From: Helicobacter sp.
GTDB lineage: Bacteria; Campylobacterota; Campylobacteria; Campylobacterales; Helicobacteraceae
Direction of reading: 5' to 3'
Length of the DNA: 42,113 nucleotides
Assembly: GCF_022770205.1 (NCBI RefSeq)
Contig: NZ_JALEIK010000014.1
Coordinates: forward strand, 1 to 42,113
This document shows, piece by piece, positions 21,621 through 28,665 of this stretch. Position 1 is the stretch's first letter; every line of letters begins with the position of its first letter. Below the pieces are notes generated by a model. The model did no database searches. It was not told where the DNA came from and worked only from the letters and a program-made list of their open reading frames with translations. A program made the position numbers and the translations under genes.

Positions 21621-21638
21621 TAACATAACTTTTACACT
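21609..21638. terminator. Possible hairpin between convergent genes
   Basis: AGTGTAAA (21609-21616) pairs perfectly with TTTACACT (21631-21638) around a 14-nt loop, exactly at the junction of the YaaW remnant and hydE ends. No clear T tract follows on either strand, so termination is only plausible. Confidence 0.35.
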
Positions 21639-23283
21639 ATTGGTGTGTAAACTCCATAGTTTCACAGGCAAAAGTTTCTGAAGTCTTAGGAAGATAATGT
21701 AAAAACTGATTTAAAAATTGCTTGTTGAAAAACATTTCTCCACAAAGAACTATGCCTTGTGTGTGGTAGTTTTCATTCATATCACGGCTAAGGTTTGCAA
21801 AAAACTCTGCTAAAGAATCTAAAATTCCAAAGCAAAGTAGGGGAGTTTCAACACCAGCAAGTTTAAAACTCATCACAGAACGCAAAGTGCGTAGTGTGTT
21901 AAGAGAAATTTTACCTTCGCTATCGCGCTCCAAGCGGAAGTCAATGCGTGGTCCCTTTTGCCCCATAAAGTTAGCAGAACTTTGTAAAACTTGCTTGTAA
22001 GCGTGTTGCAAATCTGTTTCGTTCCCTAAATCTAATAAAACTCCTGCCATTCCTATTAAATCTAGTAAATTTTCAGAGATGATGGAATCTTTAGGCAAGG
22101 ATTTTAAATGCGCAATCAAGGTTTCATTTTCTTTTGTGAAGTTTTTAAGTAGGCTTTGCGTAGTTGCATTAAGCGATTCTAAAGTAGCAATGGTATTGCT
22201 TAAATTGGATTCAAAGCTAAATTCTAAGGCTTCTTTAAAGCTATTATCAAAATACACTAAAAAGCGTGTGTTTTGTCTACCTAGATAAACTGCATTTGTG
22301 CGCTCTAAATGATTGCTTGTGATTGTGTTTTTAAATGCGTGCAGGTTCGCATTTGGTGTAAAGGGGCTAAAGCTGTGTGCTAGGATTAGCCCATTTTTTG
22401 CCACACTAATGTGTAACGGAGGGATTCCATTCTCTAGTTTTTTATCCAGTGGCAATAAATATAAACCTTGATACTCTTCTAAAAATTTGCTTAAAAGCAC
22501 TAAATGCGGTTCAAAAGGAAGAATCACATTCACAAACGCATTAGGAAAAAAGTCTGCAAAAATGCTTTTTGGACTAAGAGTAATTAAGGGCTTCTCTAGC
22601 GTGGCTAGGGCTTGTAAATCTTGCTCTTCTGCTTTAAAGATAAGCTTTGCGCAATCTAAGGAAAAAGGCATAAACATAAAATCATTCAAAAGCTTTGTTT
22701 CTTGGGCTTTGCGCTTTTCATCAAGCAAAATAACGGCGTATTTGCCAAAGATTGTTTTTAGAAAAATTTGTTCGCCATTTTTTAGTAATTGTGCATTTGT
22801 TTCTAAAGCTTGTTTTAGCTCTGCAGAGTTGCTAATTTCTAGCTTTTTATCCTTTTGCAAAAAAGTAATTTTCTCTTGTTTATAATGGATAAAATCTCCC
22901 CACAAATTACAAAAATCTTTAGAATCCTTGTTTGTAAGATTGTGAAGTTCTAAGGGAGTTAAAAAATGGCTTTTAAAGTTGGAATCCTTTTTTAAGATTC
23001 CTTGTGTGCTAAAGGATTCTATGAGCGTAAGCTCTTTAAAAGCCCATTGTAAGGATAGCGGAATGTATTGTGTTAGGGTGTTGCTAAATTCTAAAATCTG
23101 TTCTTGTGTGCCTCGTGTTTGAAGGCTAATAGAATCGTAATTTTGCACGCATTGCCCTTCTAATTGCTTGCTTTCAAGGGCAGCATATAGGGCTTGTAAA
23201 AGGAAGTTTTTAATGGAATCTGTGCTAAATTTTGTATGCTTTAAATTGGCGATATTTTCAAAAGTGTAGCTTGCAAATATCAC
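21637..23283 (-). CDS. hydE: Hydrogenase accessory protein HydE (Helicobacter type)
   Basis: A 548-residue soluble protein matching, in size and position after hydD, the H. pylori hydrogenase gene HydE (HP0635), which is needed for full NiFe-hydrogenase activity. It is not the radical-SAM HydE of FeFe hydrogenases. The C-terminal part (LLDLIGMAGVLLDLGN, then QGIVLCGEMFFNKQFLNQFL) looks like a remnant of the Kae1/HypF-like fold, ending in a gene-specific tail with one Cys. The start overlaps the hydD stop by 4 bp. The exact biochemical role is unknown. Confidence 0.8.
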   Translation of the reverse strand: MIFASYTFENIANLKHTKFSTDSIKNFLLQALYAALESKQLEGQCVQNYDSISLQTRGTQEQILEFSNTLTQYIPLSLQWAFKELTLIESFSTQGILKKDSNFKSHFLTPLELHNLTNKDSKDFCNLWGDFIHYKQEKITFLQKDKKLEISNSAELKQALETNAQLLKNGEQIFLKTIFGKYAVILLDEKRKAQETKLLNDFMFMPFSLDCAKLIFKAEEQDLQALATLEKPLITLSPKSIFADFFPNAFVNVILPFEPHLVLLSKFLEEYQGLYLLPLDKKLENGIPPLHISVAKNGLILAHSFSPFTPNANLHAFKNTITSNHLERTNAVYLGRQNTRFLVYFDNSFKEALEFSFESNLSNTIATLESLNATTQSLLKNFTKENETLIAHLKSLPKDSIISENLLDLIGMAGVLLDLGNETDLQHAYKQVLQSSANFMGQKGPRIDFRLERDSEGKISLNTLRTLRSVMSFKLAGVETPLLCFGILDSLAEFFANLSRDMNENYHTQGIVLCGEMFFNKQFLNQFLHYLPKTSETFACETMEFTHQ

Positions 23284-23819
23284 GCATAGCCTTTATAGGA
23301 AAATTTTGCAATCTCTTGTAAATCCTGATTGCCTTTTCTTTCTACAATCACATTAAGCGATTCTAAATATTTAATTGCTTGGGATTCCATAAGTTTAGCC
23401 CCTTGTAAAACTTCTTGCGTTAAATCAAAAGTTGTGCTTTCACCGATGATAAAGGGTTTGATTCCTAGAATTTTTGTTGGTGGTAAATCACCTAGCATTT
23501 CAATCATTTTTAAGGTTTGGAGTATCTCCACTTCGTGCGCACTTCCTGCCCAAGTGATGGCGTTTGGAATCGCATTAAAGTCAAAAAAATACACATCGCC
23601 AACCTTTGCATCGTTTGCATCAATGGAATCCATAATTAGCACAGAATCGTATTGTGAGATAAGCGGGATTAGGTGCTGTGCCATTGTCCCACCATCTACA
23701 ATATCCACAGAATGCTCACCGCTAAACTTGTAATTGAGCTTTAAGAGATTGGATAAATGCACGCCAATGCCTTCATCGCCAAAGAGAATATTACCTATGC
23801 CTAAAATCAGTATTTTCAA
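23280..23819 (-). CDS. hydD: Hydrogenase maturation protease HydD
   Basis: This peptidase trims the C-terminus of the hydrogenase large subunit after nickel insertion. The family motif GIGNILFGDEGIGVH, with a metal-sensing Glu/Asp, lies at the N-terminus, followed by VDGGTMAQHLIPLI, IMDSIDAND and the His-containing GSAHEVEIL. Translation starts at TTG 23819, supported by the AAGGTAGGG ribosome binding site just upstream. Length 179 is normal. In H. pylori this gene follows hydC directly; here about 4.2 kb of opposite-strand genes intervene. A TAAAAT -10 near 23855 offers a separate promoter. Confidence 0.93.
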   Translation of the reverse strand: MKILILGIGNILFGDEGIGVHLSNLLKLNYKFSGEHSVDIVDGGTMAQHLIPLISQYDSVLIMDSIDANDAKVGDVYFFDFNAIPNAITWAGSAHEVEILQTLKMIEMLGDLPPTKILGIKPFIIGESTTFDLTQEVLQGAKLMESQAIKYLESLNVIVERKGNQDLQEIAKFSYKGYA

Positions 23820-23918
23820 AACCCTACCTTAAATTGCTAATTGATTGTGGATTTTACCCAAAACGGATAAAAAATTAAAGGATAAAGTTAAGGTTTATAA
23901 AAATTCTAAAATATTATT

Positions 23919-23934
23919 AATGATAATTATTATT
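23919..23934. promoter_or_regulatory. Fur-box-like operator upstream of the metal transport operon
   Basis: AATGATAATTATTATT is an imperfect palindrome (14 of 16 positions match its reverse complement) made of GATAAT-type repeats like the classical Fur box. It lies about 24 bp before a TATAGAAT -10 element (23958-23965) and 62 bp before the first gene, the place for iron-dependent repression. It also lies between the two divergent transcripts and could affect hydDE. Confidence 0.6.
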
Positions 23935-23995
23935 AATATTTTTATAAGTTGAAAATTTATAGAATTCCCGCTATCAAATTTCTTTAAGGTTGGCA

Positions 23996-24649
23996 ATGTC
24001 GCTTTTTGATTATTCCCATTGCGATTTTAAACACATTAAAAAGCATAAGGGTATTGTTTATTTAGACACGCAGGGTTATAAAAAACCTTATGGGGATTAT
24101 TTTGAAGAAGGGCTGATTTTTTCTAAAGATGCTTATGAGGAATTTTTAAAAGAAGAGAATGTCTTTACAAGCTATAAGATTATTATCTTTCCTACGGATA
24201 TTGACCAGATTTTATTATTTGAAAATAAAAATCAAATTAAAAATTTTTTAACTAATGGAGGAATTCTTTTAAATTTTGCTCCGACTTATTTACAATATTT
24301 ACCCAAGCTTCCCCTATACACAGCGAGCAAAACACCTATTAAGCTAAGGGATATTGAACCTTTAGAGCACTGCATCACTAGGGGGGTAAAATCCTATGAC
24401 ATAAGTTATAGGCGGGGGGTTAAAGGATTTTTTTCAAGAGGTTTTATAGATTGCCCTAAAAATGCTGAAATTTTTTTAAAGGATAGCGATGGACGATGCG
24501 TCGCTTATGTAGATAACACACAAGGGCTGCTCATCCACACAGCAGGGGCAGATTTACTAGGATTTGGGTTTTTTGAAAACAGCACAGCAAAAAGACTAGC
24601 TTTTAATCTTTTGCTATGGCTCGAAGGGCATTTAAAGGAGATAGGGTGA
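23996..24649 (+). CDS. Unrecognised protein in metal-transport operon (GATase-like fold possible)
   Basis: The start is ATG 23996, 6 nt after TTAAGG, preferred to TTG 23990. The roughly 217-residue soluble protein has no signal peptide. An alternating strand/helix pattern with IIIFPTDIDQILL, then FLTNGGILLNF, and a closing segment LLIHTAGADLLGFGFFENS followed by LLLWLEG is reminiscent of class I amidotransferase-like (ThuA/DJ-1 style) domains, without an obvious catalytic Cys-His-Glu set. I cannot assign a function. It is the first gene of the Fur-box operon and overlaps the next gene, so a role in handling the imported metal chelate is inferred. Confidence 0.65.
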   Translation: MSLFDYSHCDFKHIKKHKGIVYLDTQGYKKPYGDYFEEGLIFSKDAYEEFLKEENVFTSYKIIIFPTDIDQILLFENKNQIKNFLTNGGILLNFAPTYLQYLPKLPLYTASKTPIKLRDIEPLEHCITRGVKSYDISYRRGVKGFFSRGFIDCPKNAEIFLKDSDGRCVAYVDNTQGLLIHTAGADLLGFGFFENSTAKRLAFNLLLWLEGHLKEIG

Positions 24650-25257
24650 TAAAAAGAGCTATTGTGCTAGGTGGGAGTTATTTTCATCAGGCTTTGCTTG
24701 CAAGGACTGAATTTGCGCATTTGTTTAGTGAGGTAATTTATTTGCCTAAGCTGCATAGTTATGATTTGAAAAATTATGATTGCGTTTTTCTCTCTTCGCG
24801 TTTGAATCCTAAATTTTTAAGACTCAATGCGCAAAAATTGCTAGATTATCTGGAGGAGGGTGGAAATATAGCGATTTTAGGTGGAGTGGAGGAGGAGTAT
24901 TTGCCCCATATAGTTTATAAAGAAGGAGAAGTGAATTTTTGGTGGTGGATTCACGAGGGGGCAGATTTGCCTCTTTTTGCTTTTAATGCAAACCATACAT
25001 TTTGGAATTTTCTAAGCATTGAGGAGTGTAAGTGGCATTATCACGGCACTTTTAAAGTGGAGGAAGGATGCCAAAGAATACTCATCAATGAAATTGGTGA
25101 GAACATACTTTATAAGGATGATTTGCATTTTAAAGGGAGGCTTTATTTGAGTGCCCTAGATCCGGATTTTCACATAGGGCAGGGCTTTATGCCCATTACC
25201 TTGCCCTTTTTTGAAAAATACATCCAATGGATTGAATACGACATTTTGAAAGGATAA
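24646..25257 (+). CDS. Unrecognised protein, GATase-like fold possible, paired with upstream gene
   Basis: The likely start is GTG 24646, overlapping the upstream stop (GTGA) and preceded by AAAGGAG at 24635-24641; ATG 24616 is an alternative inside the previous gene. The roughly 203-residue protein begins KRAIVLGGSYFHQALLA, then LLDYLEEGGNIAILGG, and ends with LYLSALDPDFHIGQGFMP before a short helix. Like its neighbour it resembles a class I amidotransferase fold without a clear catalytic triad. The aromatic, His-rich middle (FWWWIHEGADLPLF, KWHYHG) could bind a metal or ligand. Together the two may process or sense a metal complex; this is inference. Confidence 0.65.
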   Translation: MIKRAIVLGGSYFHQALLARTEFAHLFSEVIYLPKLHSYDLKNYDCVFLSSRLNPKFLRLNAQKLLDYLEEGGNIAILGGVEEEYLPHIVYKEGEVNFWWWIHEGADLPLFAFNANHTFWNFLSIEECKWHYHGTFKVEEGCQRILINEIGENILYKDDLHFKGRLYLSALDPDFHIGQGFMPITLPFFEKYIQWIEYDILKG

Positions 25258-25260
25258 ATT

Positions 25261-26238
25261 ATGAAAAAAATTGCGTTTGTGCTGGCTTTATGCTGCTTGT
25301 TTTATGCTCAAGGTTTTGCAAAGACAAAGGTTGCTGTCATTGGTGGAATGTGGCCTGTGCCTAATATGCTTAGTGTTTATACCGATGCTGAAATTATCTA
25401 TATGCCTAGGTCGGGTTTGATTGAGGATTCTGTGGTTTTGGACTTTTTTCCTAAGCTAAGAGAGATTAAAAAAGGAGCAAATTCTGATAATGATAATATA
25501 GAGGAGCTTTTGCTACTTAAAGCAGATTTGTATATTTGTCATCAGGCTAATGTTAAAATTTGTGGTGCTCTTAAAAAAGCGGGGGTGGAATTGATAGAGC
25601 TTGGTGTTAATGTGGATAATTATAATTTCAAGAAAGCTTTGGAGAGCTGGATTTTTCAGTTAGAAAAATATTTTCCCATTAAAGAGAAAAACCAAAAACT
25701 CATCGCCGAGATTGAGCGTATTCAAAAGGACATAGCACAAAGGATAGAGGGTAAAACAAAGCCTAGGGTTTTGATTGTTAGACAATATAGCGAGAAAAAT
25801 ATTTCTCCGGGATTTTATGCGGATTATTTTTATAAACAAAGTGGGGCAGCTAATAGCTATGATTTTAAAGCAAATGGTAGCATTAATTTAGAGGAGGTTT
25901 ATAAGCTTAATCCGGAGGTGATTTTTATTAGTAATTTCACACCGCTAATGCCACAGGATTTATATGATGATAAAAAATGGCAAGGCTTGCAAGCTGTGAA
26001 AGATAAAAGAGTTTATAAAGTGCCTTTAGGCTCTTACAGGGCTTTTGCGCCTAATCTTGATTTTGGACCTTTTTTGCTTTATCTTGCGCAAAAAAATTAT
26101 CCCGATGCTTTTAGGGATATGGATATAAAAGAGGTTTATAAAGAGCATTTTAAAACTTTTTTCAATCTTGAGCTTAGTGAAGAGCAGCTAGAGAGGGTGT
26201 TTAATCCTACTCCCATACAAGGCACGATAAAGCAATGA
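25261..26238 (+). CDS. Periplasmic metal-chelate binding protein (FecB/BtuF family)
   Basis: A 325-residue protein with an N-terminal signal peptide (FVLALCCLFYAQGFA) and a class III periplasmic-binding fold: VAVIGGMWPVPNMLSVY, LLLLKADLYICHQAN, PRVLIVRQYS, and a second lobe with EEVYKLNPEVIFISN and VYKVPLG. Class III proteins bind siderophores, haem, vitamin B12 or nickel chelates. ATG 25261 follows AAAGGATAAATT, 3 bp after the preceding gene. The ligand is unknown: the Fur box favours iron, the position inside the hydrogenase locus makes nickel worth considering. No TonB receptor gene is nearby. Confidence 0.85.
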   Translation: MKKIAFVLALCCLFYAQGFAKTKVAVIGGMWPVPNMLSVYTDAEIIYMPRSGLIEDSVVLDFFPKLREIKKGANSDNDNIEELLLLKADLYICHQANVKICGALKKAGVELIELGVNVDNYNFKKALESWIFQLEKYFPIKEKNQKLIAEIERIQKDIAQRIEGKTKPRVLIVRQYSEKNISPGFYADYFYKQSGAANSYDFKANGSINLEEVYKLNPEVIFISNFTPLMPQDLYDDKKWQGLQAVKDKRVYKVPLGSYRAFAPNLDFGPFLLYLAQKNYPDAFRDMDIKEVYKEHFKTFFNLELSEEQLERVFNPTPIQGTIKQ

Positions 26239-27224
26239 GATATATAGTTTTATTATTGATTTTGATTGTTGTTTGTTTGTATTGTTTGAGTTTGGGAAGG
26301 TATAGCTTAAGCCTTGAGGAGCTTTATAAGATTCTCTTAATGCGATTCCATCTTTTAGAATATGATGAAAATCTAGCCAATGCTGCGTTTATATTCTTTG
26401 ATATAAGGCTTCCAAGGGTAATCTTAGCACTCTTTTGTGGGGCGACTTTGGGTATTGCTGGAGCTTCTTTTCAAGCTATTTTTAAAAATCCTTTAGCATC
26501 GCCGGATATTTTAGGGGTAACTAGTGGTTCAGCATTTGGTGCGGTTTTAGCTTTGCTTTTTGGTTTGGGCGTTTTTTGGGTAAATTCTCTGGCTTTTCTC
26601 TTTGGAATCATAAGTTTGACTCTTACGCTTTTTATTGCAAGGGGAGCTAGTAATTATGTGATGATAGTGCTTGCTGGAATTATTGTAGCGGCACTTTTTC
26701 AAAGCTTCATTTCCTTGGTGAAATATTTAGCTGATCCACAAGATGTCTTGCCTGTGATAACTTACTGGCTTTTAGGTTCTTTGCAGGTTAGTGATGTGGC
26801 ACAGATAGTTTTTTGTTGTGTCATTACAAGCGTTGGAATTTTAATTTTACTCTTTTTTAGATGGAAGCATAATCTTTTAATGCTGGAGGATTTGGAGGCT
26901 AAAAGTCTTGGTTTAAATGTAACACAGCTAAGAATCATTCTTATTGTTGTCAATACGCTTATCATCTCTTCTATTGTAAGTTTGTGTGGGATTATTTCTT
27001 GGGTGGGGCTTATTATACCACATATTGCAAGGCTGATTTTTGGAAGTGATAATGCGAAAATCCTTCCTACTAGCGTATTTATAGGAGCTATCTTTATGTT
27101 GATTATTGATACTATGAGTAGGAATTTATTCGGACAGGAGATTCCTATTTCTGTATTGAGTGCCTTTATTGGTGCATCGGTATTTCTTTTTATACTTTAT
27201 CGTTTTAAAGGAGTGAATTTATGA
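26235..27224 (+). CDS. Metal-chelate ABC permease (FecCD/BtuC family)
   Basis: A 329-residue membrane protein with about nine or ten helices. Family blocks include DIRLPRVILALFCGATLGIAG, FKNPLASPDILGVTSGSAFG near the N-terminus, and GIISWVGLIIPHIARLIFG before the C-terminal helices. As a single permease it would act as a homodimer. The start overlaps the binding-protein stop by 4 bp and the end overlaps the ATPase start, showing tight coupling. Confidence 0.92.
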   Translation: MRYIVLLLILIVVCLYCLSLGRYSLSLEELYKILLMRFHLLEYDENLANAAFIFFDIRLPRVILALFCGATLGIAGASFQAIFKNPLASPDILGVTSGSAFGAVLALLFGLGVFWVNSLAFLFGIISLTLTLFIARGASNYVMIVLAGIIVAALFQSFISLVKYLADPQDVLPVITYWLLGSLQVSDVAQIVFCCVITSVGILILLFFRWKHNLLMLEDLEAKSLGLNVTQLRIILIVVNTLIISSIVSLCGIISWVGLIIPHIARLIFGSDNAKILPTSVFIGAIFMLIIDTMSRNLFGQEIPISVLSAFIGASVFLFILYRFKGVNL

Positions 27225-27958
27225 GTGTGTTTAAAATCAATGGAGCGTGTTTTGCCTATAAGGATAAGATGGTTTTTAAGGATTTAAATTTTGATTTAAA
27301 TCCCGGAGAAATTTTAGCGATTTTAGGGCATAACGGAGTGGGGAAGACAACGCTGATTAAATGTTGCATTGGGCTTTTAAAATGGACGAATGGGAAAAGT
27401 TTTTTACTCCAAAAAGATATTAAAAGCATTCCTATTAAGAAGCTTTTTTCACAAATAGCCTATGTGCCTCAAGCGAAAAATTCTAGTATCAACTTAAGCG
27501 TCTTGGATATGGTTTTGCTGGGTTGCAATATGCACATAAAAAGCATTCCTAAGAAAATGCACAGAGAAAAAGCCTATGCAATTTTAGAGTCGCTTAATAT
27601 TGCAAAACTAAGTGAAAAATCTTGTGCAAATTTAAGTGGAGGTGAATTGCAAATGGTTGTTTTAGCGAGGGCTCTTATTAATGATCCTTTGTTGATTATA
27701 TTAGATGAGCCTGAATCTAATTTAGATTTTAAAAATCAACATTGTATTTTAAATGTTTTAGAAAATTTAAAAAAGCAAAATAAAGCTATCATTATCAACA
27801 CGCATTTTCCACAAAATGCCTATAAATTAGCTGATAAGGTTTTGATTATGCAAGATAGAAAGTATCTTTTTGGAGATAAACATCTCATTAATAAAAAACA
27901 ACTCAGTACAAGTTTTGAAGTGGATGAAAACTTTTTTGATTATTTAAATTTGCTTTAA
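27221..27958 (+). CDS. Metal-chelate ABC transporter ATP-binding protein (FecE/BtuD family)
   Basis: A 245-residue ATPase with Walker A GHNGVGKTT, Q-loop YVPQAKNSS, signature NLSGGELQMVVLARAL, Walker B LLIILDEPESNLD and H-loop INTHFPQ. It completes the binding protein, permease and ATPase set. ATG 27221 overlaps the permease stop. It is the last gene of the inserted operon and converges on hydC across a strong hairpin terminator. Confidence 0.93.
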   Translation: MSVFKINGACFAYKDKMVFKDLNFDLNPGEILAILGHNGVGKTTLIKCCIGLLKWTNGKSFLLQKDIKSIPIKKLFSQIAYVPQAKNSSINLSVLDMVLLGCNMHIKSIPKKMHREKAYAILESLNIAKLSEKSCANLSGGELQMVVLARALINDPLLIILDEPESNLDFKNQHCILNVLENLKKQNKAIIINTHFPQNAYKLADKVLIMQDRKYLFGDKHLINKKQLSTSFEVDENFFDYLNLL

Positions 27959-27978
27959 TAAATACCTATAAAGCTTCT

Positions 27979-28007
27979 AAAGAATAGGGAGGATTCCTAT
28001 TCTTTTT
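27979..28007 (+). terminator. Rho-independent terminator between metal operon and hydC
   Basis: AAAGAATAGG (27979-27988) pairs perfectly with CCTATTCTTT (27996-28005), with a 7-nt loop and five T at the 3' side. It includes the hydC stop codon and could serve both convergent transcripts, though the T tract is better on the plus strand. Confidence 0.75.
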
Positions 28008-28665
28008 CAAATTTAGCACCACTTATGATAGAGTCAATTCCTCCACCTGGATAGCGTGTAGCATTCCATACAGCCATATAAATGTGAATAGGGATAAAAA
28101 TCACAAATGCCCAAGTTAAGATATGATGGATTGAACGCACATTTGCAAGCCCTCCGCACAACACTTCAATGGGCTTCATCAAAGGAGCAATAAATCCTCC
28201 AAAGCCCTCGTGATAGACATTTGCATATAGCACTAAGCCTGTAAGTGAAATTGCAAGAATGAGCAACATTATGGTGATATAAGTGATAAGCTGTAAGGGA
28301 TTATAAGAACCTTTTAAATGCGGATGTCCACCAAGCAGTAAATATGCCTTAATGACACCAATCCAAACCATAGGATTAATGAAGTCTGAAAATGAACGAC
28401 GCTCCTTTGCGCATTCTTTGGTGAAAAATAAATAAATCCGAAAAATTGTAACCGCAATGAGTGCAAATCCAAAAATCAAATGCCAACTACGCATTAGCGC
28501 ATATAGGAATCCTGTGGGCTCGCCACTAAAATTGTTAGGAGCTAAGAAGGGATAGCCTAGATAAAAGCCTGTTCCAATAAGCACAAAAATGGTAATTGCT
28601 CTTATCCAGTGAAAAATCCGTGTAAGCTTAGAAAACTCAACAACGCGTTTATATTTTGTTTCCAT
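27997..28665 (-). CDS. hydC: NiFe hydrogenase cytochrome b subunit HydC
   Basis: A 222-residue membrane protein that carries electrons from the hydrogenase small subunit to the menaquinone pool. About four transmembrane helices are seen, with conserved His residues for haem b ([40 protein letters not shown]). Length and order after hydB fit the HydC family. Its stop overlaps the terminator at 27979-28007. In H. pylori hydD follows immediately, but here the next genes belong to the oppositely oriented transport operon. Confidence 0.95.

Follow-up and report, generated by a model that had tools for sequence, protein, structure and literature searches.

A predicted Fur-controlled iron-chelate import operon with a ThuA/GATase1-like protein pair between hydC and hydD in a Helicobacter genome

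The closest described counterparts of the operon analysed here are the Fur-regulated ferric-chelate importers FecBCDE and CeuBCDE, which share with it a FecCD permease, a Peripla_BP_2 periplasmic substrate-binding protein (SBP), an ATPase and a Fur box. The H. pylori NiuBDE system (CeuE/FecDE) draws on the same SBP, permease and ATPase superfamilies and, as appears to be the case for our operon, was acquired horizontally (PMC5140060). A third metal ABC importer, NikABCDE, is encoded in the same genome as the operon, where it is the assigned nickel system and has a permease of an unrelated family; enterohepatic Helicobacter take up nickel mostly via NikABCDE (PMC5140060).

Compared with FecBCDE/CeuBCDE, the present operon has one permease gene, two ThuA/GATase1-like partners (g1 and g2) and no receptor, and a sequence comparison of its SBP with the PDB did not return C. 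jejuni CeuE. Unlike NiuBDE, which as described lacks g1 and g2, it carries a Fur box and no NikR site, and its SBP is just remotely similar.

Gene content and organisation

The window, by which we mean the whole 42,113-nucleotide stretch of Helicobacter sp. DNA that was analysed, contains the following features.

21637..23283, reverse strand: hydE-like gene
23280..23819, reverse strand: hydD, hydrogenase maturation protease, family confirmed by profile match
23850..23860, reverse strand: possible extended -10 element of hydD (GGGTAAAATCC side), with a similar element upstream of hydD in G007, G010 and G013
23913..23938, no strand assigned: predicted Fur box, an AT-rich palindrome with core TAATGATAATTATTATTA
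23958..23965, forward strand: possible -10 element of g1 (TATAGAAT), immediately 3' of the Fur box
23996..24649, forward strand: g1, 217-aa protein with a ThuA/GATase1-like predicted fold and no Pfam or NCBIfam family; ATG at 23996, with TTTAAGG upstream
24616..25257, forward strand: g2, 213-aa paralogue of g1 with a ThuA/GATase1-like predicted fold and invariant H141, H143, D182, H186 and NF-WW
25261..26238, forward strand: SBP, Peripla_BP_2; nearest solved chain 4ovk
26235..27224, forward strand: FecCD-type permease, FecCD family match, the sole one in the genome
27221..27958, forward strand: ABC ATPase, ABC_tran match
27979..28005, no strand assigned: hairpin at the hydC 3' end, seen by folding
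27997..28665, reverse strand: hydC, b-type cytochrome subunit, family confirmed by profile match

The cassette g1-g2-SBP-permease-ATPase spans 23996-27958, diverging from hydD across a 176-bp intergenic gap and converging with hydC. All four of its junctions are overlapping or 3 bp apart, and the five ORFs are therefore read as a single operon. The ORFs, their strands and their families uphold the original prediction of a five-gene convergent/divergent operon dividing hydC from hydD, and the presence of a Peripla_BP_2 SBP, a FecCD permease and an ABC_tran ATPase in one operon, as in FecCD-type iron-chelate importers, marks it as the metal-transport type that had been proposed. Its gene order is that of the g1-g2 cassettes of Campylobacterota. 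The hydE-like protein (21637-23283) gives a weak, sub-threshold match to the HypF C-terminal domain (E 0.0015).

The hydC-hydD junction

That the operon splits the hyd locus had also been predicted, and the synteny comparison proposed as a check agrees. Contiguity of hydC and hydD was found in 31 of 35 relatives, a set of 18 same-genus and 17 other Helicobacteraceae genomes; no more than 461 bp separate hydC from hydD in 16 of the 18, and the two genes are adjacent in 15 of the 17. Because contiguity prevails among relatives, the split in the window is taken to be derived. Besides the window, the genes are not contiguous in four genomes, G007, G013, G021 and G033. The close relative G007 holds a different six-gene insert between hydC and hydD (L091, 3882-9037), made up mostly of unassigned genes and including an LpoB-like protein, a weak FlgT_N match, DUF6844, DUF1425 and a TPR protein. 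This separate insert implies that the junction has received genes more than once, and the junction would seem to accept inserts readily.

The hairpin at the hydC end (GAATAGG...CCTATTC) is identical in the window, G007, G013 and G015, and could end both converging transcripts. In G007, G010 and G013, as in the window, hydD is preceded by a T-rich stretch that contains a GCTAAAAT-like element. Close relatives free of the cassette share this hairpin and have a comparable promoter-like element upstream of hydD, so the two hyd blocks seem to be transcribed separately within the clade. The insertion may thus have been tolerated because hydC already had a conserved terminal hairpin and hydD a promoter-like element of its own. 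Neither a search for sigma-70 promoters nor a strict search for terminators gave a clear result in the intergenic regions.

The Fur box and metal specificity

Within the hydD-g1 gap, TAATGATAATTATTA at 23918 matches 13 of 14 positions of the H. pylori Fur 7-1-7 consensus TAATAATnATTATTA (PMC4557348), a score that 3 out of 500 dinucleotide-shuffled sequences attained (P=0.006). The box also agrees with TGATAATnATTATCA at 13 of 14 positions (P=0.002, shuffles), and just 2 of 477 overlapping 176-bp stretches across the 42-kb window score this high. The resemblance to a Fur site that had been pointed out therefore stands at the level of sequence, and with it the operon has the Fur-type operator at its promoter that accompanies FecCD-type iron-chelate importers. 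The box overlaps the likely g1 promoter. The NikR operator of NiuBDE has no comparable counterpart, the best NikR-like candidate in the hydD-g1 gap being not above chance (P=0.22).

Apo-Fur represses hydABCDE in H. pylori (PMC4557348), and with hydD and g1 this close together, Fur at the box could in principle also control hydDE through the shared gap, coupling hydrogenase maturation to iron. We regard such control as improbable: the box is centred ~84 bp upstream of the point where hydD transcription apparently starts, on the g1 side, with the hydD promoter-like element ~60 bp beyond the box; relatives without the cassette also have that element; and no Fur-like site was found upstream of hydA in the window genome. 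The position of the box and the promoter-like element of cassette-free relatives likewise speak against the earlier suggestion that the shared gap couples hydDE to metal supply.

A nickel importer, or one for nickel and iron, that supplies the NiFe hydrogenase in the manner of H. pylori NiuBDE is a very unlikely description of the operon. In its favour are the match of the SBP to H. pylori CeuE/NiuB (66 bits), nickel transport by the FecCD-type NiuD of H. pylori (PMC5140060) and the adjoining hyd genes. However, the gap offers a Fur box and only a chance-level NikR candidate, Firmicute relatives have near-perfect Fur boxes, and the genome encodes NikABCDE on another contig (C18), with NikA at 479.7 bits (cut-off 393) and NikC at 368.7 bits (cut-off 335). 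NicO (NixA) is absent from the window genome. The cassette is moreover unlinked to the hyd genes elsewhere: hydC and hydD were present in 36 of 36 genomes tested, as against only 22 of 121 family genomes for the cassette, and in seven other Helicobacteraceae in which both were mapped they lie on different contigs. These results run counter to the idea that the transporter feeds hydrogenase maturation, and the cassette is probably a neighbour of the hydrogenase genes merely by chance. If real, a hydrogenase link would connect hydrogen use to the supply of iron or nickel.

The reading that we consider likely is that the operon encodes a Fur-repressed, horizontally acquired importer for an iron chelate, a ferric siderophore or similar, with no functional tie to the hydrogenase. 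Each of the 17 Firmicute g1-g2 operons that were compared is preceded by a Fur box; these boxes are of the TGATAATCATTATCA type and match TGATAATnATTATCA at 12-14 of 14 positions (P 0 to 0.03, 200 shuffles each). In Paenibacillus, g1-g2 accompany an Opp/Nik-type importer instead of FecCD and a Fur-type box is again present, an arrangement that suggests that g1 and g2 follow the cargo rather than the permease. Counting against iron are the boxes of several Campylobacterota and spirochaete relatives, which are weak or not above chance, and the remote similarity of the SBP to the nickel-binding H. pylori CeuE/NiuB, although its group is marked by conserved GxYR and WP motifs.

Heme, instead of a ferric siderophore, is an unlikely cargo. 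The receptors of related cassettes score highest against heme/hemoglobin receptor models, and the SBP gives a weak IsdE match; but the best receptor scores, against heme and siderophore models, all fall below cut-off with the siderophore models close behind, and the conserved gene set includes no recognised heme-degrading gene.

The cassette, its receptor and the g1-g2 pair

The same gene set occurs in Helicobacter, Campylobacter, spirochaetes, Firmicutes, Corynebacterium and Alphaproteobacteria. Of 121 genomes of the family, 22 have g2, which is also present in a second family of the order; its named carriers are Helicobacter (apodemus, mesocricetorum, cinaedi), Campylobacter, spirochaetes, Firmicutes, Alphaproteobacteria and Corynebacterium. 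Most of these cassettes follow the arrangement g1-g2-SBP-(TBDT)-permease-ATPase, although the receptor-permease half is inverted in some Helicobacter. The window g2 is 71% identical to that of Campylobacter sp. MIT 21-1684, whose contig stops inside the SBP gene of the cassette, compared with 59% to that of same-genus H. apodemus. It also pairs with the MIT 21-1684 sequence (100/98), and spirochaete g2 sequences nest inside the Campylobacterota group; together these placements point to horizontal transfer. One relative encodes a second, distant CeuE-like SBP (27% identity; L030, 7802-8788) with no permease or ATPase genes adjacent.

A TonB-dependent receptor is present in the other complete Campylobacterota cassettes and broken in one. 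The window cassette has none: nothing of a receptor gene is left between SBP and permease, and the genome as a whole contains no orthologue of the cassette receptor. CfrA with ExbBD-TonB may replace the lost receptor for this importer; the genome encodes a CfrA-like ferric enterobactin receptor (1198.8 bits against a cut-off of 1200) next to exbB-exbD-tonB and with its own Fur-like site. CfrA orthologues occur in nine same-genus genomes, only three of which have the cassette, which rules out tight co-occurrence. Six same-genus genomes with CfrA have no full-strength FecCD permease match, so a partnership of CfrA with the importer would not be obligatory.

The proteins g1 and g2 are paralogues (hhalign 97.6%, E 3.3e-12), and their predicted models (pLDDT 90 and 85 for the g2, g1 pair) indicate a class I glutamine amidotransferase-like (GATase1) fold. 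The g2 model aligns best with 3soz (Z 15.2, rmsd 2.8, 183 aligned) and the g1 model with 3rht (Z 12.9, rmsd 3.1, 183 aligned). Relative to the ThuA-like and class I glutamine amidotransferase-like proteins 3soz, 2gk3, 3rht and 1t0b, however, both stand at 12-16% identity and lack an invariant cysteine in their alignments. Ordinary class I glutamine amidotransferases, with a conserved catalytic cysteine, were rejected as an assignment. Neither protein could be placed in a family of Pfam, NCBIfam or PHROGs, PDB sequence searches with their profiles returned chance matches only, and a literature search found no description of them.

Several variations accompany the pair elsewhere. A family of ~170-185 aa with no Pfam match adjoins g1/g2 in Firmicutes and Alphaproteobacteria (L193 7586-8119, L204 8612-9169 and 16 other loci) and carries the motif SGHAGPGFRDAFEYVTRA in Firmicutes. 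Staphylococcus, Lysinibacillus and Salinicoccus (L191-L201) have a further g1/g2 pair, which either precedes the first or diverges from it, and apparent g1-g2 fusions of ~450-515 aa occur in some species (L027 4180-5673, L140 6999-8345, L148 6611-8158).

SBPs of this kind generally capture their ligand in the periplasm, and FecCD permeases with their ATPases then import it. In the model that we infer, from chelate substrate and Fur binding to g1/g2 roles and partner receptor, Fur would come off its site at 23913-23938 when iron is scarce, which would allow the operon to be transcribed. The chelate would enter most plausibly through CfrA with ExbBD-TonB, encoded on another contig, be captured by the SBP in the periplasm and be carried into the cytoplasm by the permease and ATPase, where g1 and g2 would process it, for example by helping to free the iron. 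The cassette, which lacks the TonB-dependent receptor of its relatives, would have arrived by horizontal transfer and settled between hydABC and hydDE, since the clade already transcribed these two blocks separately.

A role for g1 and g2 in handling the imported chelate is suggested, with the caveat that a shared fold is no proof of function. We tentatively propose that they form a new ThuA/GATase1-like pair that binds the incoming iron chelate or frees its iron in the cytoplasm, as part of a Fur-controlled system of Campylobacterota, spirochaetes, Firmicutes and others that works with FecCD-type and Opp/Nik-type importers alike. The locus thereby draws attention to a widespread Fur-linked import system with two predicted cytoplasmic partners that have neither a Pfam family nor a sequence-detectable solved relative, and the function of g1 and g2 could reveal a new mechanism of iron release from imported chelates.
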